A DNA stretch of 64,000 nt. Origin: Meiothermus sp. GTDB lineage: Bacteria; Deinococcota; Deinococci; Deinococcales; Thermaceae. The stretch is taken from contig NZ_BPIM01000001.1 in NCBI RefSeq assembly GCF_026004115.1, forward strand, positions 1,426,001 to 1,490,000, given 5' to 3'. Below, piece after piece: positions 6,750 to 24,085 of the stretch. Made by a program: the position numbers and the translations under genes. Every line of letters starts with the position of its first letter. Position 1 is the first letter of the stretch. Below the pieces are notes generated by a model, which worked only from the letters and a program-made list of their open reading frames with translations, did not search any database and was not told the DNA's origin.

Positions 6750-9700
6750 ATGAAGCCATCTTTGCGTCCGGGTGTTTTAGCTATCGTTTTGATTGTGCTG
6801 GCGGCCTGTACGCAGGCCCAGCCCACCCAACCCCAGCCCCAACTGACCGCTCAGGCCGTCTCGAATGGCGTGGTGATTAGCCAGGTGTATGGCGGGGGTG
6901 GCAACAGCGGGGCCCCTTTCACCCACGACTTTGTCGAGCTGTTCAACCGCGGGAGCACGCCGGTTTCCCTGGATGGCTGGTCTGTCCAGTACGCCAGTGC
7001 GACGGGTACCGGCAGCTTTGGCGCCAGCAGCACCCAGCTCACCGAGTTGCCCAGCGTGACGCTGCAACCCGGGCAGTACTACCTTGTGCAGCAGGCAGGG
7101 GGTACGGCGGGTGCGGCTCTGCCTGCACCGGACTTAATTGATCCCACGCCCATTGCCATGGCAGCGGCAGCGGGCAAGGTAGCGCTTGTCTCGAGCACCG
7201 CCCCCCTGGGTTGTAATGGCGGCTCCACCCCCTGTTCTGCCGCCCAACTGGCCCAAATTGTAGATCTGGTTGGGTATGGCAATGCCAATTTCTTCGAGGG
7301 TTCGGCGGTGGCCCCCACCCTCTCCAACACCACCGCTGCGCTGCGCAAGGGCAACGGCTGCACCGAAACCGACCAGAACGCTGCCGACTTTGAAGCAGCC
7401 GCGCCCAGCCCGCGCAACACAGCTTCCGCCCGCAATTTTTGCGGGGAGTCGGCCCCCAGCGTGGTGGCCTCGGTTCCGGCCCCAGGCGGTACCATCAACC
7501 CCAACGATAACCTGGCCCTCACCTTCAGCGAGCCCGTGAACGTGAGTGGCAACTGGTTTGAAATTGCCTGCTCGGCCAGTGGAACGCGCACGGTGGCCGA
7601 CGCAGTGGTCTCGGCCAACGCCACCTCCACGCAGTTCGTCATTAACCCCAACGTCGATTTCGCCTCGGGCGAGAGTTGTACCCTCACGGTTTTTGCCGCG
7701 CAGGTGTCGGATGTGGATACCCTCGACCCCCCCGACACCATGAGCGCCAACTTTGCCCTTGCCTATAACCCGGTCTCGGTCTGCGACCTGCCCCATACCC
7801 CCATCTACCAGATTCAGGGCAGCGGCCTGGCGGCGGCCATTACCGGCAGTGTGGTCACCAAGGGCGTGGTGGTGGGCGACTATGAAGGCCCTACCCCGGC
7901 CCTGCGTGGTTTTTATATCCAAGACCCCACCGGCGATGGCGATAACACCACCTCCGACGGCATTTTCGTGTTCAACGCCAACAACGACAACGTTTCGCTG
8001 GGCGATGTGGTGCGGGTGACCGGAACGGCGAACGAGTTCCAGGATCAGACCCAGGTGAGTGCGACCTCCATTACCAAGTGCGGCAGCGGAACCGTCACAC
8101 CTGTAGACGTGACCCTGCCTTTTGCCTCGGCCACCGATGCCGAGCGCTACGAGGGCATGCTGGTGCGCCTACCCCAGACCCTCTACGTGACCGAGCACTT
8201 CCAGCTCGGGCGCTTTGGGCAGGTGGTGCTCTCGTCGGGCGGCAGGCTGATGCAGCCCACCCACGTGACCACGCCCGGCGCTGCGGCCAATGCCCTGCAA
8301 GCTCAGAACAACCTCAACCGCATCATCCTGGATGACGCCCTGCAAAACCAGAACCCCGACCCCATTTTGTTTGGCCGCAATGGGCAGCCCTTGAGCGCCA
8401 GCAACACCCTGCGCGGGGGCGACACCGCCACGGGCATTGTGGGCGTGATGACCTATACCTGGGCTGGTAACGCCGCCAGCGGCAACGCCTACCGGGTGCG
8501 GCCTATTGGGGCCTTGAACGGTTACGCGAACTTTGTGGCGGCCAACCCGCGCCCCACCACCTCGCCCGCTGTGGGGGGAACCCTGCGGGTGGTGGGGATG
8601 AACCTGCTCAACTTCTTCAATACCTTTGACGGGCTGCCGGACACAGTAGACAACTGTACGAACGGGGTGGGGGGTGCGCCCACCGACTGCCGGGGCGCCG
8701 ATACCCTGCCCGAGTTCAACCGCCAGTGGCCCAAGACGGTCGCGGCCGTCCTGGCCATGAACCCGGATGTGCTGGGCTTCAACGAGATGGAAAACGACGG
8801 CTACGGTCCCGACAGTGCTATTGCCTTCCTGGTGGACAAACTCAACGAAGCCACCGCGCCAGAAACCTTTGCCTTCATCGACGCCGATGCGGCCACCGGC
8901 CAGGTGAACGCCCTGGGCAGCGATGCCATCAAGGTGGGCCTGATCTACAAGCCGGCCCGCGTGACCCCGGTGGGCCAGACGGCAGTGCTCAACACCGCAG
9001 CCTTCGTGAACGGCGGCGACAGCGCCCCACGCAACCGAGCCTCCTTGGCCCAGGCCTTCCAGCAAAACGACAACGGGGCCATTTTCATCGTGAACGTGAA
9101 CCACCTCAAAAGCAAGGGCTCGGCCTGCGACCTGCCCGACCAGGGCGACGGGCAGGGCAACTGCAATGCGGTACGCACCAATGCTGCGCACCAGCTTGCG
9201 GCCTGGCTGGCCACCCACCCCACCGGCATTGCCGACCCGGACGTGCTCCTGATTGGCGACTACAACGCCTACGCCCAGGAAGACCCCATTACCGCCCTCA
9301 AAAATGCGGGCTTTGTGAATCTGCTCGAGACCCGCCTGGGCCCTGGGGCCTACTCGTATGTGTTCGATGGGCAGTGGGGCTACCTCGACCATGCCCTGGC
9401 CTCGGCCTCCCTGAATGCGCAGGTTGCTGGGGTGGCCGAGTACCACATCAACGCCGATGAGCCCAGCGTGCTCGACTACAACACCGACTTCAAGACCGTA
9501 AACTTGCAAGCGGTGCTCTATGCCCCCGATCAGTTCAGGGTGTCCGACCATGACCCGGTGGTGGTGGGGCTGAACTTGGCTGCTCCGGGGGCCTGGTTCT
9601 TTGGCCCCATTGCGCCGTTCCCGGCCTTCAGCAACGTCAACTCGGGCCAGACCATCCCGCTCATCTTCAGCCTGGGCGGCAACAAGGGGCTCGACATCTT

Positions 9701-9926
9701 TGCGCCAGGGTTCCCCAAGTGGCAGGTGATTCCGTGTGGCTCTACCGCTGCGGTGAACGGCACCCACCCCACCAGCAGCAAAGGGGGCCTCCGCTACAAC
9801 CCCCTGCAAGATCGCTACACCTACCCCTGGAAAACCGAGAAAGCCTGGGCCGGTAGCTGCCGCCAACTGGTGGTGCGCTACACCAACGGCATTACCTACC
9901 GGGCCAACTTCAACTTTGTGAAGTAG
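6750..9926 (+). CDS. Secreted lipoprotein nuclease: LTD + Ig-like + ExeM/NucH-type endonuclease + PxKF domain
   Basis: 1058 aa behind AGGAGG. Signal peptide with lipobox VLAAC (Cys about residue 20). Domains seen: lamin-tail domain about 40-180 (VISQVYGGGGNSGAPFTHDF, VELFNRG); SbsA-type Ig-like domain about 238-345; an OB-like domain about 350-465 (FYIQDPTGDGD, GDVVRVTG) as in ExeM; endonuclease/exonuclease/phosphatase domain about 610-945 with E679 (GFNEME), D837/N839 (GDYNAY) and D933-H934-D935 (SDHDP). The C-terminal 100 residues are a PxKF-type domain (IPLIFSLGGNKGLDIF ... YTYPWKTEKAWAGSCRQL), a common surface add-on. Likely degrades extracellular DNA at the cell surface, for phosphate or nucleotide scavenging or biofilm turnover. 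All catalytic residues look intact. A terminator follows. Confidence 0.9.
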   Translation: MKPSLRPGVLAIVLIVLAACTQAQPTQPQPQLTAQAVSNGVVISQVYGGGGNSGAPFTHDFVELFNRGSTPVSLDGWSVQYASATGTGSFGASSTQLTELPSVTLQPGQYYLVQQAGGTAGAALPAPDLIDPTPIAMAAAAGKVALVSSTAPLGCNGGSTPCSAAQLAQIVDLVGYGNANFFEGSAVAPTLSNTTAALRKGNGCTETDQNAADFEAAAPSPRNTASARNFCGESAPSVVASVPAPGGTINPNDNLALTFSEPVNVSGNWFEIACSASGTRTVADAVVSANATSTQFVINPNVDFASGESCTLTVFAAQVSDVDTLDPPDTMSANFALAYNPVSVCDLPHTPIYQIQGSGLAAAITGSVVTKGVVVGDYEGPTPALRGFYIQDPTGDGDNTTSDGIFVFNANNDNVSLGDVVRVTGTANEFQDQTQVSATSITKCGSGTVTPVDVTLPFASATDAERYEGMLVRLPQTLYVTEHFQLGRFGQVVLSSGGRLMQPTHVTTPGAAANALQAQNNLNRIILDDALQNQNPDPILFGRNGQPLSASNTLRGGDTATGIVGVMTYTWAGNAASGNAYRVRPIGALNGYANFVAANPRPTTSPAVGGTLRVVGMNLLNFFNTFDGLPDTVDNCTNGVGGAPTDCRGADTLPEFNRQWPKTVAAVLAMNPDVLGFNEMENDGYGPDSAIAFLVDKLNEATAPETFAFIDADAATGQVNALGSDAIKVGLIYKPARVTPVGQTAVLNTAAFVNGGDSAPRNRASLAQAFQQNDNGAIFIVNVNHLKSKGSACDLPDQGDGQGNCNAVRTNAAHQLAAWLATHPTGIADPDVLLIGDYNAYAQEDPITALKNAGFVNLLETRLGPGAYSYVFDGQWGYLDHALASASLNAQVAGVAEYHINADEPSVLDYNTDFKTVNLQAVLYAPDQFRVSDHDPVVVGLNLAAPGAWFFGPIAPFPAFSNVNSGQTIPLIFSLGGNKGLDIFAPGFPKWQVIPCGSTAAVNGTHPTSSKGGLRYNPLQDRYTYPWKTEKAWAGSCRQLVVRYTNGITYRANFNFVK

Positions 9927-15722: not shown

Positions 15723-15773
15723 ATGGCCAGACGTGTCTGGTATCTGGATTGATTCCGACCCCGGCTTCGACGA
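15723..15773 (+). pseudogene. 5' remnant of an inosine-uridine nucleoside hydrolase gene
   Basis: The bases encode M-A-R-R-V-W and then, after a frame change, WIDSDPGFDD, the N-terminal calcium/ribose-binding D-x-D-P-G-x-D-D motif of nucleoside hydrolases. The frame change coincides with a 7-bp tandem duplication (TCTGGTA-TCTGG). Everything after the DD codons is unrelated. This fragment marks the left edge of the accessory block ending near 24031. Confidence 0.6.
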
Positions 15774-15925
15774 CCAGGAAGGCTCGAGCAAGAGTTCGGC
15801 CACTGTTCATAGGGGCACTTTCGTCGGAAAAATATCGCGCGTCCTGCGCAGCGTTGAACTGAGAACTCGCCCCGAGTTCCCGGCATAACGCCGATATAAC
15901 GCCTGCCCGTATAGGCTGGTTCCGC

Positions 15926-18613
15926 ATGGGCAAGGCCACCGGTAACCCGGCCGAGGCACGCTTGGAGCTTGTGTTACTGGGTGTGCCGGGCCTCTGTCTG
16001 GGAGGGCAGCCGATAGCGCTGTCGGTCAGGAAATTCATGGGGGTGATCGCGTATCTAGCCCTCGAGGGGCCGACCTCGCGCGGCAAGCTGGTGAGCTTGT
16101 TGTGGAGCGACCTGGACGAGGAGGGAGCGCGCCGCAACCTGCGGCTGGGGCTCCACCGGGTAAAGAGCAAAAACCCCGAACTGGCCAGGTATCTTGAGGC
16201 CTCCGGCGAAGTCCTGAGTCTGAGTGGAGCCTGGCAGAGCGACGTGCAGCGCCTTGAGGCAGCCCTCGAGGCCGGGCAACACGAGGCCGCACTCGAGGCC
16301 TACCGGGGGCACCTGCTCGAGGGCTTCGAGATCGAGGACGCCGAGGGCTTCCACGACTGGCTGGGGGCCAAGCGCGAGCACCTCAACCGCCAGTGGCAGA
16401 AGGCCATGCTCTACCAGGCCGAGGTGCTGGAGACCCGTGGCGAGTGGCGCAAGGCCCTGGACATCCATCTGCGGCTACTGGCCGACGACAACCTGCAAGA
16501 GCGCCATCACCGCGAGGTGATGCGGCTCTTTTACCTGCTCGGCGACCGCGAGGCGGCCCTCGAGCAGTTCGAGCAACTGCAAGCCACGCTGCGAAAAGAG
16601 TTGGGCGTGGAGCCCCGCTCCGAGACCCTCAGCCTGCTGAGCACCATCCGCCAGGGTGGCAGTGCCGACGCCAAGCGGGCGCTCTTGCTAACCAGCGCCG
16701 AGGCCGTGCCTGAGGTGCCCGCCCATCTTTACGGGCGCGAGAGGTTGCTTGACGAGGGTTTGAGAAAACTCGAGCGCAGAGAGCGGGTCTTGCTTCAGGG
16801 CTTCGGCGGGATGGGCAAGACCGCGCTGGCGGCGACGCTGGCTCGAGACTTCCTGCGCCAAACCGGAAAGCCCGTCCTGTGGCTGCACGCGGGCACCCAG
16901 GGCCCCGAGGCGATCTTCGAGGCCCTGGCCTACCCCTACGACGCCCAGCAGGGCCTGCTCAAGGCCGAGCACAAGGCCAGCTTCGTCCATAGCCTGCTCA
17001 AGGAGCAGCAGCCCGGCCTGCTGGTGCTGGACGACGTGTGGAACGGCTATAGCCTGCAAAAGCTGCTCGAGGCCCTGCCCGCCGGGCTGCCCCTGTTGGT
17101 CACCGCCCGCGAGCGCTACCCGCAGCTCGCCCGGCTCTACGTAGACCGCCTCGAGCGCCCCGATGCCCTGCACCTCCTCAGCGCCTATGCCGAAGAGATC
17201 TGGGCCGACTCGAGCGAACCCGAAGCTTTGTGCGAACTGCTGGGCAACCACCCTTTCGCCCTGCGGCTAGCGGGCCTGGCCCTGCGCCAGAGCGGCGAGG
17301 CCCCCAGTGCCCTCAAGGAGCGCATCAAGGACGCCCCCCACGACCTCAAGACCCCCGGCGAGTTCCGGGACGAAGGCCGCGAGAGCGTGGCGGCGCTGCT
17401 GGGCTTGAGCCTCGAGGCCCTCTCCGACCCCGAGTACGAGGCCTTCCTGAGCTTCGGGATTCTGCCCACCCCGCGCACCACGGCGGGCTTTCTGGCCCGG
17501 TGCATGCGCCGCGAGCCGGAGGCCACCGAGGAAGCCCTCTACGCCCTGAGTCAGCGCGGGCTGGCCGAGCGGGTCAGCCGACCGGGCAGCGACGCTGTGA
17601 GCTACCGCCTGCACGACCTGGCCCACAGCTACGCCAAGGCCAACCGACTGCAACGCCCCAGCAGCCTTGCGCGGGCCGCGCTCGAGTACCTCGAGGCCCA
17701 CAAAACCCACTACGATTTGCTCGAGGCCGACATCTCCAACCTGCTGGCGGCGGCCCAGGCCGCCAAGGGCGAGAGGCTGGTGCGCTACCTGTACCTGCTC
17801 ACGGTGGACGGGGCGTATTTTACGGCTCGAGGGCACTCAATCCACTCGGTGGAGCTGCTCAGAACAGCCGCAGCTACCGCCGAGACCGTTGCCCCCGAAC
17901 TCGCCCACCACCTGCTGGGCAAACTAGGCGACTACCACCAGAAGTTCCTGGGCGATCTGGACGGCGCGGCAGACCACTACAGGGGGGCGATGGAGGTGGC
18001 TCGGGAGGTCGGCAACACCGCACGGCAGGCGGCTTTCCTGGCCGCCATCGGACAGATCAAAGGCCGTCAGAACAGGCCGGAGGCCGAAGATTATTTCGCT
18101 CGAGCCTACGAGATCGCCCGTAGCAGCGGGGATGACCTGACGCTGTGCGCGGTGCTGGAAAAGCACGGCTACGTGGCGGGGATTCGGGGCGATCACCGGA
18201 AAGCGAATGCACTGCTAAAAGAGTCATTGGCGGCCCTCGAGCGGCTGGAAAATAGTTCGACCCTGAGCCCGAAAGAAGTTCAACACAGGCGGTTTTTCAC
18301 CCTCCTCAACCTGGCCGAATCCGAGGACTTGACCGGCGCTTTCGAGGCGGGCCTATCGGCTTGCCAGCAAGCGCTCGAGCTGGCCCAAAGCTGCGCGAAC
18401 GACCTGTGGGTAGCCTACGCCCATTCGCAAGCCGCAGACATGTACCACCGGGCTGGGCAACGTACTCAGGTTCTCGACCACATGAAGAAAGCACTGGAAC
18501 TGTTTGAACGCAATCACGCCCAAAACGATGTGGTGCGGATAATGAACTTCCTGGCGAGTGAGGGGTACAGCCTGGAGGCTCGAGAAACGCTCGAGAAACA
18601 CCGCCTTAACTAG
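15926..18613 (+). CDS. STAND regulator: winged helix + BTAD + NB-ARC ATPase + TPR (SARP/AfsR-like)
   Basis: 895 aa. Order: DNA-binding winged helix about 12-95 (LVLLGVPGLCLGGQPIALSV, GARRNLRLGLHRVKS), BTAD all-helical domain about 100-235 (EAALEAYRGHLLEGFEIEDA, HHREVMRLFYLLGDREAALE, RKELGVEPRSETL), NTPase about 265-560 with Walker A GFGGMGKTAL (K298) and Walker B LLVLDDVW (D369), winged-helix/lid region, then TPR-like helices from about 600 to the end. This is a signal-integrating transcription activator of the AfsR type. It precedes two surface proteases and is a plausible cis regulator of them. The start has no strong Shine-Dalgarno. It contains about 20 CTCGAG hexamers in 2.7 kb. Confidence 0.88.
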   Translation: MGKATGNPAEARLELVLLGVPGLCLGGQPIALSVRKFMGVIAYLALEGPTSRGKLVSLLWSDLDEEGARRNLRLGLHRVKSKNPELARYLEASGEVLSLSGAWQSDVQRLEAALEAGQHEAALEAYRGHLLEGFEIEDAEGFHDWLGAKREHLNRQWQKAMLYQAEVLETRGEWRKALDIHLRLLADDNLQERHHREVMRLFYLLGDREAALEQFEQLQATLRKELGVEPRSETLSLLSTIRQGGSADAKRALLLTSAEAVPEVPAHLYGRERLLDEGLRKLERRERVLLQGFGGMGKTALAATLARDFLRQTGKPVLWLHAGTQGPEAIFEALAYPYDAQQGLLKAEHKASFVHSLLKEQQPGLLVLDDVWNGYSLQKLLEALPAGLPLLVTARERYPQLARLYVDRLERPDALHLLSAYAEEIWADSSEPEALCELLGNHPFALRLAGLALRQSGEAPSALKERIKDAPHDLKTPGEFRDEGRESVAALLGLSLEALSDPEYEAFLSFGILPTPRTTAGFLARCMRREPEATEEALYALSQRGLAERVSRPGSDAVSYRLHDLAHSYAKANRLQRPSSLARAALEYLEAHKTHYDLLEADISNLLAAAQAAKGERLVRYLYLLTVDGAYFTARGHSIHSVELLRTAAATAETVAPELAHHLLGKLGDYHQKFLGDLDGAADHYRGAMEVAREVGNTARQAAFLAAIGQIKGRQNRPEAEDYFARAYEIARSSGDDLTLCAVLEKHGYVAGIRGDHRKANALLKESLAALERLENSSTLSPKEVQHRRFFTLLNLAESEDLTGAFEAGLSACQQALELAQSCANDLWVAYAHSQAADMYHRAGQRTQVLDHMKKALELFERNHAQNDVVRIMNFLASEGYSLEARETLEKHRLN

Positions 18614-18645
18614 ATTGCTCTTAACAGCTTGAACGGGAGGATGCC

Positions 18646-19983
18646 ATGCGGGAACAAGTTCTGAGTCTGGTATTCACGGCCTTACTGGTGGCAGGGTGCG
18701 GGCAGGTTAGGCCCTCCGACGCGGCGGACGCGGACGGCAAGGTGCGGGCGCAGGCCATCGTCCTTAGCAACCTGCGTGGACTGACCATGCCCCAGCTCTA
18801 CGTGCCCGACCCTAACGATCGGGTCAACTGCGCTGTCAACGAGTTCAGTATGCCAGGGCAAGGCTACTGGGTCTCGGACGCGGTAGGCGGCCTGAGCTAC
18901 GCGCCCGTGACCAGCTCCGTCAGCGCCGGAAAGGTCGGGGCCGGGCTGCAAAGCGGCTTCTTTACCGGGGCCACGCTTAAGCGCAGCATGGTAATTCTGA
19001 TCGCGGACGACTTCAAAAACGGCGTCTTTAATGTGGGCAACGCGCTGTTCACCCAGACCACCCTCGACCAGCCGACCATCCAGAACCTCCAGCAGACCGG
19101 CGCACTCTCGCACGGGGCCTTGGTGGCGCGACATGCCAGGGACGTGCTCCTGGGCACCGGGCGCTACAGCTTTGTCTCCTACAACTCCGGCGAGTGGGTG
19201 TACAAAGAGGCCAGCACCAACAGCCGATTCACCGTCAAAGCCATAGACACCGGCCTGAGCAGCAGCGCAGTGATTGCCGACAAGATCAAGACCTACCTCC
19301 AGTTCCTGGCCCTCAAAAACCAGACCGCCGTGGTCAACCTGAGCTTCGCCCTCATGCCCTGCGGCGTAAAAAGCGACTTCGAGCAGTGGGACGCGCAGAA
19401 CTCGGGCGTGCAGACCTTCGAGGGGTACATGCAGGCCCTGGCCACGCTCAACACGGTGGACTACGACGCGCTGGTGGCAGCAATAGTGGAGAGCACCAAC
19501 CTGCCCAACGACCCCCTGCTGGGTCTCATCAACAACACCGCCTACGGAGCCGCCCGGCACGTCTACGTGGCGGCCTCGGGCAACTTCAGCCTGAAGTATT
19601 CGATGTACCCAGCCAACTGGAAGAACGTAGTCAATGTGACCGGCTCGACGGCCTCGAGCGGCCCCGACGGCAGGGTGCGCAACGACAAGTTGTTCAACCA
19701 GGGCGAGATCATGCACACGGCGGCCTCGCTGGTGCTCAACCCGCCGCCCTTGCTGCTGAACGGCAAAAAAGTCTACTACCTGGGTACCTCGTTCTCGGCG
19801 CCCACGGTGAGCGTGTTCAGCGCTCTGGACTTGGCGGGCTGGCTCAAGTGCGGCGGCGGGACGGGCGTCTCCAAGCTGGCGGTCAACTCGCTAGGATTGG
19901 TGGATCGGCACCTCGAGGACTGGGTCGTGAGCGGACAGGTGCAGCAGAAGGGCGCGGTGAGCGAACTCTGCACGGGGCCGTAG
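18646..19983 (+). CDS. Lipoprotein subtilisin-like (S8) protease
   Basis: 445 aa, start behind GGGAGGATGCC, 32 bp after the regulator gene. Lipobox LLVAGC (Cys18) predicts a lipid-anchored surface protein. Divergent S8 motifs are in the right order: Asp in LIADDF (D121/D122), His in LSHGALVARHA (H156), oxyanion Asn in AASGNFS (N313) and Ser in YLGTSFSAP (S382). There is no clear separate pro-domain; the roughly 90 residues after the lipobox may play that role. The sequence is diverged from classical subtilases, so activity is likely but not certain. With the papain-like gene downstream it gives the block two cell-surface proteases. Confidence 0.8.
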   Translation: MREQVLSLVFTALLVAGCGQVRPSDAADADGKVRAQAIVLSNLRGLTMPQLYVPDPNDRVNCAVNEFSMPGQGYWVSDAVGGLSYAPVTSSVSAGKVGAGLQSGFFTGATLKRSMVILIADDFKNGVFNVGNALFTQTTLDQPTIQNLQQTGALSHGALVARHARDVLLGTGRYSFVSYNSGEWVYKEASTNSRFTVKAIDTGLSSSAVIADKIKTYLQFLALKNQTAVVNLSFALMPCGVKSDFEQWDAQNSGVQTFEGYMQALATLNTVDYDALVAAIVESTNLPNDPLLGLINNTAYGAARHVYVAASGNFSLKYSMYPANWKNVVNVTGSTASSGPDGRVRNDKLFNQGEIMHTAASLVLNPPPLLLNGKKVYYLGTSFSAPTVSVFSALDLAGWLKCGGGTGVSKLAVNSLGLVDRHLEDWVVSGQVQQKGAVSELCTGP

Positions 19984-20283
19984 ACCCCCGACATTGGCGA
20001 GTCCTGAGTTGATCTTGTAAATAACGAGCCTTGTATCGTGCCCATCTTCGCGAAGGGGGCGCTGCGTTGTGGTCACCTGTTCACGAAATTGCTGAAGACC
20101 TCGGCGCATGTTGGGGGGGCTTTTCCGCACCAAACCCCTTGCCCAAAATCGGACTAGGGCGTGCGGGGTGAGCGGCGGTTTTGTGAGTTCGTGTGCCGTA
20201 CAGCGTAACCGCCCGATTCGGGGCCATCTAGAAACGCTCGAGAAACACCTTTTTTTCTACCCTCATCCCCGGAGGTGAGGGGA
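19984..20283. other. Spacer between the two protease genes, with a 20-bp direct repeat
   Basis: No supported gene. AGAAACGCTCGAGAAACACC at 20230-20249 repeats exactly the segment 18583-18602 in the 3' end of the regulator gene. A pyrimidine stretch TTTTTTTCTACCCTCATCCC precedes the GGAGG of the next gene and resembles the leader of the gene at 22965. Confidence 0.45.
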
Positions 20284-22833
20284 ATGAATTGGAAGAAGTC
20301 AATGGGTATGACAGTGCTGCTGGCGCTGCTGGCGTCGTGCGGCGGCGGGAACCCCGGTGGGGGCGGCGACTCGGACATTTTCAAGCCCGAGAACGCATTC
20401 GGGAAGGCGCCACCCGAAGGGGCGGAAAACATCTCGCCGGAGGAGTTCGGCAACCTTAGCAAAGACCCCAACTTCCGCTGGGAGTCGGCCTCAGCACAGG
20501 CAATGCGCAAGCAAAAGACCGACGCCCAGTTCCAGGCCGACAAGGTGCTGCTCGAGGGCCTGGCCGACCCTCGACTGGCCCGCTTTCTCAAGAACCCGCT
20601 CCCCGGACTAAAGGAAAACTTTGGTGGGCAGTACCTGATCAGCGTGCCTACCCGCAGTGGCAAGATGCTCAAGGTGCTCACCCAGGGCAAGCGCGAGACC
20701 TACCGTGAGCTGGTCAGCGGGCGGCAGCGCTACCTCGACAAGAGCAACCAGTTGGGCGTCTACAAGAGCCTCTACGAGAGCCTTTCCGAAAGCCTGCGGA
20801 GCGGGCTGCCCGCCCCCCAAGACCTGCAGAACCAAAGCTATGAACAGATCATGACAGCGCTCAAACAGGCCGAGAACAAGCTGGCCAGCAACATCGAGCA
20901 GATTGAACTCCAGGCCGAGCAACGGGGCTTCTCACGCCCGGGCGTGAGCGCCCAGGCCGACCCCTACATGCCTCCCACCTACCCGGCCAACGCCAACGCC
21001 GAGGTCGAGTCAGGCGAAGGCTCCGACCGCACCGGCAACGGTTGCGGGCCGGTCTCCGGCGGGGTCTACGAGCGGCTGCACTGGGCACAGAAATACTTCA
21101 CCACCAGTATCAAGAACCAGGGTAACCGGGGCTCCTGCGTCTCGTTCGCCCTTGCGTCGGCCCTCGAGACCCAGGTCGCCATCCGCAATGCCAGGTGGGT
21201 TAACCTGTCTGAGCAGTACCTCTACAACCGCATCAAGTCGGTCTGGGATCCCGACAACTACGGCGACGGCACCAACACCGCCGACGCCGCCGAGGAGTTC
21301 CACGACTCCGGCTACCTGCTCCCCTTCGAAAGCCAATGGAACTACAACCCCTCCTACAGCCGTGTGGATCACGAGGACGACGAGTACTACACCAAGAGCT
21401 GCACCGACTACGACGAGCGCTGCTCCAACACCACCCACCAGGGCAAGTTCGTATGCACCACCGTGGACAACGTGTCCTACTGCGGCTCCATCCCGCCCAA
21501 CCCTGGCCAGGATGGCTACCGCATCTCCGAGTCGCACCTTTTGTGGTCAAACGGCATCTTTAGCGGTGATATCCCGGTGAACACCGTGCGCGCCCTGCTC
21601 ACGCTGGGACACCCCATGGTGGTGGCCCTCGAGGTGTTCGAGAACGGTTTCTCCCCCAACGCCGAGGGCTTCCTCACCAGCTACGCCGACGACGATCTGC
21701 GCGGTGGTCATGCGGTGCACCTGGTGGGTTACCTCTCCAACGCCAAGATCCAGGCTAAGTTCCCCAACGCCCCGATCGGCGAGGGCGGTGGCTACTTCGT
21801 AATCAAGAACTCCTGGAGCGACTGCTGGGGCGACGGGGGCTACGTCTATATTCCGGTCAACTGGGCCAACCAGTTCTTCAAGAACATCACCTACTACACC
21901 GCGGGCAGCCTCTCGAGCATCTTCACCAACAAGCCCCCCGCCGTGCAGATCGCCGCGCCCTCGAACGGGAGCAGCTTTCCCTTCGCCCAGGACACCACCT
22001 ACAAGGCCACCGCCACCGACCCCAACGGCGGCAACCTAATCATCCGCTGGTCGTCTAGTCTGGACGGCGACCTGGGCAGCGGCGCACAGATCACCAAGCA
22101 CTTCACCAGCCCCGGTACCCGCGTCATCACCGCCGTGGCCGAGGATTCACTGGGCTTCAGGAGCGAGCCCGCCAGCATCACCGTGACCGGAATCAACCAG
22201 GCCCCCACCGCCAAAATCCTCACCCCCCTGCCTAGCGCCACCATCTACGCGGGCAGCACCGTGGTCAACTTCCAGGGGGAAGGCCTCGACGGCGACGGTG
22301 CATTCCCGGTTGAGCTGAGCTGCGACCGACTGAGCTGGAAGAGCAGCAACGCGGCGGACAATCTGGGCAGCGGCTGCGACTTTAACCACACCTTCACCAC
22401 TACCGGAAGCCGCACCATCACCCTCACTGCCACCGACCTCTACGGCGCGAAGGGCACCGCAACGGTCTCGGTCAATGTGACGCCCAAGCCGCCGGCTGGG
22501 CCGCCGATTATCAACATCACCAACCCCATTGACGACAAGTACTATGGCAGCGCTAACACCAACATCCGCCTCTCCTACAGCAAGGACGACCCCGGCGAAA
22601 AGCCTGGCGATATGTACACGGTGGTGTGGCGGATTAAAGTCGGCAGCCAGACCAAGACCATCACCCCCAAGACCTGCACCATCCGGGGCCTGCCTTATCC
22701 ATGTTTCAACCCATCGGAGATGGGCTATAACGACAATGGCGTCAAGCAAGCCGAGGTCTCGGTTTCGGTGACCGACGCCGAAGGTCTGACCGGCACCGAC
22801 AAGGTGAATATCTCGTTCGGATTTGTGCCCTGA
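20284..22833 (+). CDS. Lipoprotein papain-like (C1A) protease with Ig/PKD repeats
   Basis: 849 aa. Start at 20284 behind GGAGGTGAGGGG; a GTG 9 bp upstream overlaps that site and is less likely. Lipobox LLASC (Cys near residue 19), low-complexity GGGNPGGGGDSD linker, helical pro-like region to about 250, then the C1A domain: SIKNQGNRGSCVSFALASAL with catalytic C285, GGHAVHLVGY with H476, and VIKNSWSDCWGDGGYVYI with N509. An insertion with several cysteines (about 360-405) lies inside the catalytic domain. From about 545 three Ig/PKD-like repeats follow (NKPPAVQIAAPSNGSSF, NQAPTAKILTPLPSA, PAGPPIINITNPIDD). Likely a surface protease whose C-terminal repeats hold it in the cell envelope or bind substrate. 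Confidence 0.88.
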   Translation: MNWKKSMGMTVLLALLASCGGGNPGGGGDSDIFKPENAFGKAPPEGAENISPEEFGNLSKDPNFRWESASAQAMRKQKTDAQFQADKVLLEGLADPRLARFLKNPLPGLKENFGGQYLISVPTRSGKMLKVLTQGKRETYRELVSGRQRYLDKSNQLGVYKSLYESLSESLRSGLPAPQDLQNQSYEQIMTALKQAENKLASNIEQIELQAEQRGFSRPGVSAQADPYMPPTYPANANAEVESGEGSDRTGNGCGPVSGGVYERLHWAQKYFTTSIKNQGNRGSCVSFALASALETQVAIRNARWVNLSEQYLYNRIKSVWDPDNYGDGTNTADAAEEFHDSGYLLPFESQWNYNPSYSRVDHEDDEYYTKSCTDYDERCSNTTHQGKFVCTTVDNVSYCGSIPPNPGQDGYRISESHLLWSNGIFSGDIPVNTVRALLTLGHPMVVALEVFENGFSPNAEGFLTSYADDDLRGGHAVHLVGYLSNAKIQAKFPNAPIGEGGGYFVIKNSWSDCWGDGGYVYIPVNWANQFFKNITYYTAGSLSSIFTNKPPAVQIAAPSNGSSFPFAQDTTYKATATDPNGGNLIIRWSSSLDGDLGSGAQITKHFTSPGTRVITAVAEDSLGFRSEPASITVTGINQAPTAKILTPLPSATIYAGSTVVNFQGEGLDGDGAFPVELSCDRLSWKSSNAADNLGSGCDFNHTFTTTGSRTITLTATDLYGAKGTATVSVNVTPKPPAGPPIINITNPIDDKYYGSANTNIRLSYSKDDPGEKPGDMYTVVWRIKVGSQTKTITPKTCTIRGLPYPCFNPSEMGYNDNGVKQAEVSVSVTDAEGLTGTDKVNISFGFVP

Positions 22834-22889
22834 TGCCTACTCGCTGAGCGCCGCTGGTACGGAGAAAGCATCTTGAGGCAATTTTTCAT

Positions 22890-22952
22890 GGGGAAGGGTA
22901 GGGATGAAGGCTAGCAACGCTTCTGCAACGCCCGATTTTCTACCCTTTCCCC
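22890..22952 (+). promoter_or_regulatory. Long inverted repeat in the leader of the small gene
   Basis: GGGGAAGGGTAG (22890-22901) and CTACCCTTTCCCC (22940-22952) are complementary apart from one extra T. The right arm touches the AGGAGG of the gene at 22965, so pairing could limit ribosome access or act as a processing signal. Confidence 0.4.
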
Positions 22953-22964
22953 AGGAGGCCGTGC

Positions 22965-23177
22965 ATGAGTGAACCCATTCCCAAGGAAGTCTGTTTCGAG
23001 TTGCGCATTCGGCCCGAGTCGGCGGCGTATTCCTGGCACGCCACCCTCAAGCTGCTGGCCCTCCAGCCGGGCCTCCCCCAGGGGGAACTCGAGCGCTACG
23101 AGTTTGACAGCCCGCTCGAGCTGGCCCGGCACCTGGCGAGCCTGGAAAACCCAAAGCCCAAAGGAAAATTGCGCTAA
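22965..23177 (+). CDS. Small hypothetical protein (70 aa) between the protease and PKD lipoprotein genes
   Basis: Starts behind CAGGAGGCCGTGC. Product MSEPIPKEVCFELRIRPESA... ends in a basic KPKGKLR. No signal peptide or membrane segment, so it is cytoplasmic, unlike its secreted neighbours. The alternation of charged and hydrophobic residues suggests a small alpha/beta fold. I do not recognise the family. The leader can form a long hairpin. Position suggests co-expression with the proteases, perhaps as a regulator or immunity-type partner, but this is only context. Confidence 0.6.
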   Translation: MSEPIPKEVCFELRIRPESAAYSWHATLKLLALQPGLPQGELERYEFDSPLELARHLASLENPKPKGKLR

Positions 23178-23209
23178 AGCGGTAGTGCGTCTTGGCAGGA
23201 GGAACCCTT

Positions 23210-24085
23210 ATGATTCGAACGCTGCGCTGGACAGCTTTGGCTTTACTGTTCTGCATTCTGGCGGCGTGTGGCGGAGGGGGTAACCCCGGTACGAACAAAC
23301 CCCCGGTAGCTTCCTTCACCGCAAACCCGACCGTACAGGCCGGAATCCCCTTGGCTTTCGACGGCTCGGCCTCCTCCGACCCCGACGGCGAGCCGCTCTC
23401 CTTTAGCTGGGAGTTCGGCGACGGGGTGCGGGGCGGGGCGGCCAAAATCGCGCACATCTTCACCGAGGCCGGAACCTTCAAGGTCAGGCTCACCGTGGGC
23501 GATGGCAGAGGCGGAACGAACAGCACCGAGAAAACCGTCACCGTCACCCCCGGCCCGGCCCCCTCCAAAACCGTCAGTGCCCTGGCCTTGGTGACCGACC
23601 CCTCGGGCAACGCCCTTTCCGGCGTTTCGGTAAGCGCGGCGGGCGGTGGCAACGCTACCACCGATGCCAGCGGCAGGGCCAGCGTGCCGGGCGTGGGGAT
23701 GGGGGTTCCGGTCACGCTAAAGTTTTCCAAGACCGGTTTCGCCGACCAGTTCAAGGTGCTCGAGCTGCCCGCCGCCGCCGAGTCGGGCTATCTCGAGGCC
23801 CGCTTGATGCCTCGAGAATCCGCCCAAACCCTGGCGGATGCGGCCAAAGGTGGGAGCCTGACCGGGAAACAAGGCGCGAAGATCACCCTTCCGGCCAATG
23901 CCCTGGTGGACTCCGGTGGGAAACTGGTCAGCGGGGCTGTGCAGGTCAGCCTTTCGCCGGTGGACGTGGGGGCCAGCCCCGAGGCCTTCCCCGGCCGGTT
24001 CGCGGGGGTGGGGCCGACTGGCGAACAGGGCATTATTCCAGCTCTTCGCGCCACGGAGGGTTGGCCCCGGCGCGGGTACAGGTGA
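23210..24085 (+). CDS. PKD-domain lipoprotein, C-terminally truncated
   Basis: Starts behind GCAGGAGGAACCCTT with MIRTLRWTALALLFCILAAC; lipobox LAAC. One PKD domain at about 30-115 (PPVASFTANPTVQAGIPLAF, SWEFGDG, TFKVRLTV), then a carboxypeptidase-regulatory-like beta domain about 120-190, then GAKITLPANALVDSGGKLVS with GAVQVSLSPVDV, the start of a domain that in related surface proteins continues for a few hundred residues. Here it breaks off: the last about 18 codons (from about 24031) lie on the antisense of the 3' end of pfkB. I infer that a deletion or the block's edge cut the gene. The product may be unstable or inactive. Confidence 0.7.
   Translation: MIRTLRWTALALLFCILAACGGGGNPGTNKPPVASFTANPTVQAGIPLAFDGSASSDPDGEPLSFSWEFGDGVRGGAAKIAHIFTEAGTFKVRLTVGDGRGGTNSTEKTVTVTPGPAPSKTVSALALVTDPSGNALSGVSVSAAGGGNATTDASGRASVPGVGMGVPVTLKFSKTGFADQFKVLELPAAAESGYLEARLMPRESAQTLADAAKGGSLTGKQGAKITLPANALVDSGGKLVSGAVQVSLSPVDVGASPEAFPGRFAGVGPTGEQGIIPALRATEGWPRRGYR

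Follow-up and report, generated by a model that had tools for sequence, protein, structure and literature searches.

A predicted surface-protease regulon in Meiothermus under a chimeric SARP-STAND regulator whose sensor half belongs to a subtilase-paired lineage

In a 64,000-nucleotide stretch of Meiothermus sp. DNA (NCBI RefSeq assembly GCF_026004115.1, contig NZ_BPIM01000001.1, positions 1,426,001 to 1,490,000 of the forward strand; hereafter the window, whose own numbering we use), five consecutive genes encode a SARP-STAND-TPR regulator, a subtilase lipoprotein of family S8, a papain-like (C1A) lipoprotein, a small cytosolic protein and a PKD lipoprotein. Based on the predicted operators, the active-site residues and the relatives of each part, we consider it probable, though by no means certain, that this block is an autoregulated SARP regulon which places two proteases with intact active sites at the cell surface, with the subtilase standing on the input side of the sensor. 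Sequence comparison indicates a composite locus, put together from two modules that are each conserved on their own, with a regulator that is itself a chimera.

Results

Predicted operators precede every transcription unit of the block

Gene content, gene order and the single strand all agree with the preliminary description of the block. The five genes form four transcription units (the regulator; the S8 lipoprotein; the C1A lipoprotein; the small protein together with the PKD lipoprotein), and upstream of each lies a predicted operator of the pattern AACGC-N6-AACGC-N9-TANNNT, i.e. with AACGC half-sites 11 bp apart. Pattern scanning placed these operators at 15887–15917 for the regulator gene (AACGCCGATATAACGCCTGCCCGTATAGGCT), 18586–18616 for the S8 gene, 20233–20263 for the C1A gene and 22916–22946 for the small-protein/PKD unit. 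When the whole window was scanned with at most one mismatch, these four were the only sites, all on the + strand and all within the block, vs. 0.25 expected, and none of the shuffled window sequences reached four. A chance cluster was rejected on these counts; co-regulation of the block genes is strongly supported by the predicted sites, and the proposal of a surface-protease set under one SARP-STAND regulator gains support from their presence at all units. Binding of the regulator had been proposed for three intergenic spacers, of which those at 19984–20283 and 22834–22964 do hold a predicted operator, while the S8 operator overlaps the last nucleotides of the regulator gene and does not sit in the 32-bp gap. 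The promoter of the regulator gene, which had not been named, carries one as well.

An ordinary accumulation of surface genes beside a regulator, without shared control, would fit the composite origin of the locus, its broken right edge and its truncated PKD gene, and also the fact that the exact five-gene set, searched for in 111 genomes of the order, occurs once, in the window only. We nevertheless regard it as very improbable in view of the four like operators, each unit having its own upstream and the rest of the window lacking any, and of the same operator before the C1A gene or its orthologue in eight other genomes (in one of them, G041, the orthologue has an S8 domain). Recurrence, which had been put forward as a check on the block, thus fails for the exact set and holds for the theme of a regulator with surface proteases, which repeats in the genome and in the phylum.

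The architecture of the predicted operators is sharply defined. AACGC pairs occurred 20 times at a spacing of 11 bp and at most 4 times at any other spacing, and the N9 distance to TANNNT was also sharply preferred. In loci of relatives, which fall into the modules A and B described below, 10 sites were found in module A vs. 0.15 after shuffling and 11 in module B vs. 0.25, the latter count being not fully independent because some of the sequences it covers were among those from which the consensus had first been recognised; Chloroflexota STAND-S8 pairs without a SARP domain gave 0 vs. 0.35. These shuffles, like the permutation tests below, take no account of shared ancestry, and some of the genomes that contributed several of the pairs are close relatives of one another. 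Less exposed to the circularity are the window-wide scan, a genome-wide scan with 17 sites vs. 1 for the reversed pattern, and a sequence-agnostic test (heptamer repeat of 11 bp plus −10), which was positive for about 12 of 49 SARP-cluster genes (13/51 in the raw count, where genes in overlapping stretches were counted twice) vs. 0 of 158 controls, with heptamers that differed from cluster to cluster. Several of the genomic sites precede other regulators, secreted proteins or another small-protein gene. In the literature, SARP operators appear as direct repeats spaced by 11 bp, the 3′ copy standing 8 bp from the −10 (PMC10936776), and as heptamers with 4-nucleotide spacers (PMC5930380). The predicted operators share the direct repeats, the 11-bp period and the position just upstream of the −10 that mark the large SARPs. 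A sigma-70 consensus scan of the block was uninformative.

Two promoters deserve further mention. Since the −10 of the regulator gene ends only 8 nucleotides before the ATG, the regulator mRNA is probably leaderless, a mode of expression described as common in Deinococcota (PMC12340547). The C1A site shares an exact 20-mer (AGAAACGCTCGAGAAACACC, 20230–20249, + strand) with the S8 site (18583–18602), which suggests a duplication of the promoter at the time of insertion of the subtilase. Elsewhere in the genome, two near-identical segments (G000:C1:1686820–1686850 and G000:C2:10833–10863) carry the operator ahead of a gene for a secreted protein of 192–202 residues, and at a further locus (L105: 10751–13861, 6937–9567) a second C1A lipoprotein adjoins a divergent SARP-like STAND/TPR regulator, also with an AACGC operator.

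The regulator appears to be a natural chimera

The regulator (15926–18613, + strand, 895 residues) matches the Pfam models BTAD (61 bits), NB-ARC (30.5 bits) and TPR_12 (54 bits), and by its NB-ARC and TPR parts it belongs with the large SARPs of AfsR type. Pfam called no separate OmpR-type winged helix in it; its N-terminus aligns throughout with other SARP proteins. Upon split comparison, the SARP half was 47–55% identical to the regulators of module B (59% for that of G025), which in relatives stand ahead of C1A and small-protein genes with the same operator, and 32–39% to those of module A, while the STAND-TPR half was 35–46% identical to module A across ~630 residues and had no comparable match in module B. 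The switch falls near residues 231–245 (about 16616–16660), at the domain boundary. In agreement with this, the best-preserved module-B locus has a longer SARP-STAND regulator preceding the C1A gene that matches the window regulator in the first ~250 residues only, and the module-A regulators of Trueperaceae-type genomes match it along the full length and have a subtilase directly downstream. In a phylogenetic tree the SARP half of the window regulator fell among the B group, the 98/96 support belonging to the separation of A from B and not to the placement of that half. Because its two halves match different modules, the regulator is best read as a natural chimera that joins a module-B SARP half to a module-A STAND-TPR half, with the subtilase brought in alongside the sensor half. 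A single conserved five-gene cassette was rejected: the window subtilase occurs in none of the family's other searched genomes, in which C1A and small-protein genes are present.

The sensor half is conserved together with a subtilase

The S8 lipoprotein (18646–19983, + strand; lipobox VAGC; VDDF subfamily) scores 21.4 bits with the Pfam S8 model on its own, just below the cut-off of 21.8. Its predicted catalytic residues D121, H156, N313 and S382 (triad and oxyanion Asn) are invariant in 23 relatives, and the AlphaFold model has a subtilisin-like fold (predicted local distance difference test score 83) whose best matches in the PDB are subtilases. With the Asp-His-Ser triad, the oxyanion Asn and the modelled subtilisin fold, the protein can be assigned to Peptidase S8.

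A scan of genome contigs, seeded with the regulator only, yielded relatives of the STAND half in Trueperaceae and in many Chloroflexota. In Chloroflexota, 15 of 16 loci whose STAND half is close to that of the window (at least 285 bits to the window regulator, a threshold set after the fact) had an S8-like gene immediately downstream, a single case among the 15 being weak and cut by the contig end; where the STAND half was more distant, 0 of 8 assessable loci had one. In 22 STAND-S8 pairs the gap was mostly below 100 bp, the four catalytic positions were kept throughout, and STAND and S8 distances were strongly correlated (Mantel r = 0.92, 0 of 5000 permutations as high, kinship not corrected). 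Such figures suggest that the pair is old. The output domain attached to the STAND half is SARP in the window and DUF4062 or a protein kinase in Chloroflexota; in some Deinococcota, where the TPR half is more distant, it is a cyclase. As the output domain varies while the subtilase persists, we infer that the subtilase acts on the input (sensing) side of the regulator. VDDF-type subtilases were also seen directly 3′ of large TPR proteins with AAA_16 in four further genomes (L238–L241 in G093, G091, G081 and G094), and the upstream TPR protein of L239, when scanned, contained a guanylate-cyclase-type catalytic domain. In literature on SARP/BTAD proteins (Meiothermus, subtilase) and on DUF4062 we found no description of this regulator–subtilase pairing.

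The NB-ARC domain has its closest PDB matches in plant NLRs, which raises the idea of an immune or antagonism module, in which the STAND half would detect invaders or competitors in the manner of an NLR and the proteases would be effectors released outward. Predation, envelope remodelling and peptide signalling had earlier been suggested as possible roles of the block. The Chloroflexota relatives would speak for it too, as they carry an N-terminal DUF4062, a domain that they share with Swarozyc and that has been reported as a TIR-like NADase in antiphage defence (PMC13174449). According to the Pfam scan, however, the window regulator differs from the Swarozyc-like proteins in lacking DUF4062, and the reported partner of Swarozyc is a phage portal and not a protease, subtilisin being absent from the text of that paper (PMC13174449). 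Moreover, PADLOC gave only generic weak TPR/ATPase matches for the block proteins and no system-level match, on which a known anti-phage defence system was rejected; no defence genes were recognised around the block; and the output here is a transcription activator, with proteases that are exported lipoproteins. We therefore hold an immune role to be improbable.

The C1A and PKD lipoproteins and the edges of the block

The C1A lipoprotein (20284–22833, + strand) combines a Peptidase_C1 domain (62 bits) with Ig/PKD repeats (PKD in Pfam), has cathepsin L and falcipain as PDB matches, and carries the Cys-His-Asn residues of Peptidase C1A in its predicted papain domain (C285, H476 and N509, numbered from the ATG at 20284). 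A search of the 111 genomes showed close relatives of this protein, and likewise of the small protein, within the genus and the family; genes in the loci of relatives were called with a simple purpose-written caller. In G041 (L122:4617–7418 on C27) a natural protease-domain swap was found, in which the C1A orthologue bears an S8 catalytic domain on the Ig/PKD tail; the tail is 50% identical, the same operator lies upstream and a small-protein gene follows downstream. With an S8 domain replacing papain on a kindred tail under the same operator, protease type, scaffold, operator and sensor thus appear to be interchangeable parts.

The PKD/carboxypeptidase-regulatory-like lipoprotein (23210–24085, + strand) is, by comparison with homologues of 884 and 1232 residues, a truncated remnant: it aligns with them to about residue 283 of its 291 only, and its gene passes into the 3′ end of pfkB at a rearrangement breakpoint (24033–24085). 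Both edges of the block had been described as broken genes; this holds for the right edge. On the left, an open stretch at 15739–15885 (GIWIDSDPGFDD...), by eye like the start of a nucleoside hydrolase, reaches up to the operator of the regulator and has no Pfam match. A lipoprotein of 1058 residues (6750–9926) is encoded close to the block and outside it.

A small-protein family accompanies SARP regulators

The small cytosolic protein (22965–23177, + strand, 70 residues) belongs to an uncharacterised family with a predicted β-β-β-α fold of moderate confidence. No named match was found in Pfam, NCBIfam or PADLOC, nor did a structural search with the fold give any. In its own genome, 7 of the 10 small-protein genes have a BTAD gene within 5 kb vs. 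0.42 expected (p = 2e-8). Since the only copy in the 16 Chloroflexota genomes searched adjoins a SARP-STAND gene, the family seems to follow SARP and not the STAND-S8 pair, and the small protein is probably an accessory of SARP-type regulators, as a modulator or adaptor. Exclusive association with SARP clusters was rejected, as an orthologous group stands beside ABC-transporter genes in Meiothermus-like genomes. There, small-family genes (L245:8936–9136, L264:8503–8724, L265:8377–8574 and L268:8585–8797) occur in a conserved setting with ABC transporters and a 279-residue protein and have no adjoining SARP regulator; the L264 locus also carries the AACGC operator.

Regulators and surface proteases are associated across the genome

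The genome encodes 14 BTAD proteins and has 15 S8 genes, 6 of which have a BTAD gene no more than 5 kb away vs. 0.63 expected (p = 2e-5); two more adjoin SARP-like regulators that the BTAD model missed. Most of the BTAD genes have divergent surface lipoproteins and operator heptamers of their own. This pattern, together with the exchange of catalytic type on the same Ig/PKD scaffold in G041, is what would be expected if the block were a substrate-specific scavenging locus. The proteases would then simply supply nutrients, and the regulator would respond to starvation or to some metabolite that has nothing to do with the subtilase; the many paralogous SARP-STAND/lipoprotein clusters would do for proteins what polysaccharide-utilisation loci do for polysaccharides. 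Scavenging leaves unexplained why the same subtilase stands beside the STAND half when the output is DUF4062, a kinase or a cyclase, and we consider it rather unlikely, if the most serious of the alternatives.

Discussion

Among characterised proteins, AfsR of Streptomyces coelicolor, a large SARP, resembles the window regulator in its SARP-NOD-TPR order, and its operators, each a pair of direct repeats with an 11-bp period close before the −10, resemble those predicted here (PMC10936776). In AfsR, the SARP domain is kept in check by the NOD and TPR parts until ATP binding lifts the inhibition, the inducer of the sensor domain being still to be found (PMC10936776). AfsR differs in serving antibiotic metabolism through afsS, in being phosphorylated by kinases and in having no known paired protease (PMC10936776), whereas the predicted targets of the window regulator are surface proteases and its sensor half comes from a subtilase-paired lineage. 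The RRNPPA receptors are an analogy only: they too are cytosolic TPR receptors for a signal matured by extracellular proteases (PMC11343458), but lack an NB-ARC switch and a SARP domain, and no propeptide gene was recognised here. The block also invites comparison with a STAND activator of another kind. MalT of Escherichia coli has a TPR-type sensor and a C-terminal LuxR-type DNA-binding domain and senses maltotriose; the window regulator is likewise a STAND transcription activator with a TPR-type sensor, for which we propose a similar product-induced logic, and differs in being of SARP type.

Starting from the gene content, intact active sites, operators, chimera and conserved pairing computed here, we infer DNA binding, activation, peptide sensing and a role for the small protein in the following scheme. 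The SARP half, the operators and the C1A, small-protein and PKD genes would derive from one conserved module, and the STAND-TPR half and the subtilase from a second, inherited as a pair whatever the output domain. By analogy with AfsR, the regulator would stay inactive as long as no signal reaches its STAND-TPR half; in its active, ATP-bound form it would bind the 22-bp direct-repeat operators overlapping the −35 region of the four units, and so turn on all of them, the regulator gene included, with the small cytosolic protein assisting. The STAND-TPR half may report something that the subtilase makes or meets, most simply a released peptide, as this fits the logic of MalT and the pairing kept across outputs. 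Successful surface proteolysis would then amplify expression of the whole set.

Several observations weigh against this regulon and its sensing of the subtilase. The analysis brought to light no ligand, no importer for peptides and no propeptide gene, nor was an exported small peptide recognised among the genes of the block, very short open reading frames having not been systematically searched. With its PKD gene damaged, the locus may be partly decaying. The AACGC operator also precedes other genes in the genome, other regulators and secreted-protein genes among them, on which its exclusive use by the window regulator was rejected. Finally, the correlation of STAND and S8 distances is weaker for the eight Deinococcota pairs alone (r = 0.76, 76 of 5000 permutations as high), one close Chloroflexota STAND gene lacks an S8 partner (L161) and one VDDF-type S8 gene lacks a STAND neighbour (L237).

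Cumulatively, our findings point to an uncharacterised kind of protease-linked signalling. More tentatively, and as a possibility we would not yet call probable, Chloroflexota and Deinococcota may share an undescribed receptor class, in which a STAND-TPR sensor of NLR-like type has a functional tie to a secreted subtilase from a subfamily of its own and drives an exchangeable output (transcription activator, DUF4062, protein kinase or cyclase). If the pairing is functional, such protease-coupled receptors would span the two phyla, and if the class is real, the cell would read extracellular proteolysis and turn it into whichever response is attached, which in this genome would be more surface protease, helped by a new family of small SARP partners. 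The natural chimera separates a DNA-binding half, which keeps its operators and targets, from a sensor half that probably arrived with the subtilase, so that the question of what a sensor of this kind reads can be tested directly. The operator rule, in turn, makes the regulons of many SARP-STAND genes of Deinococcota predictable and ties in the uncharacterised small-protein family.

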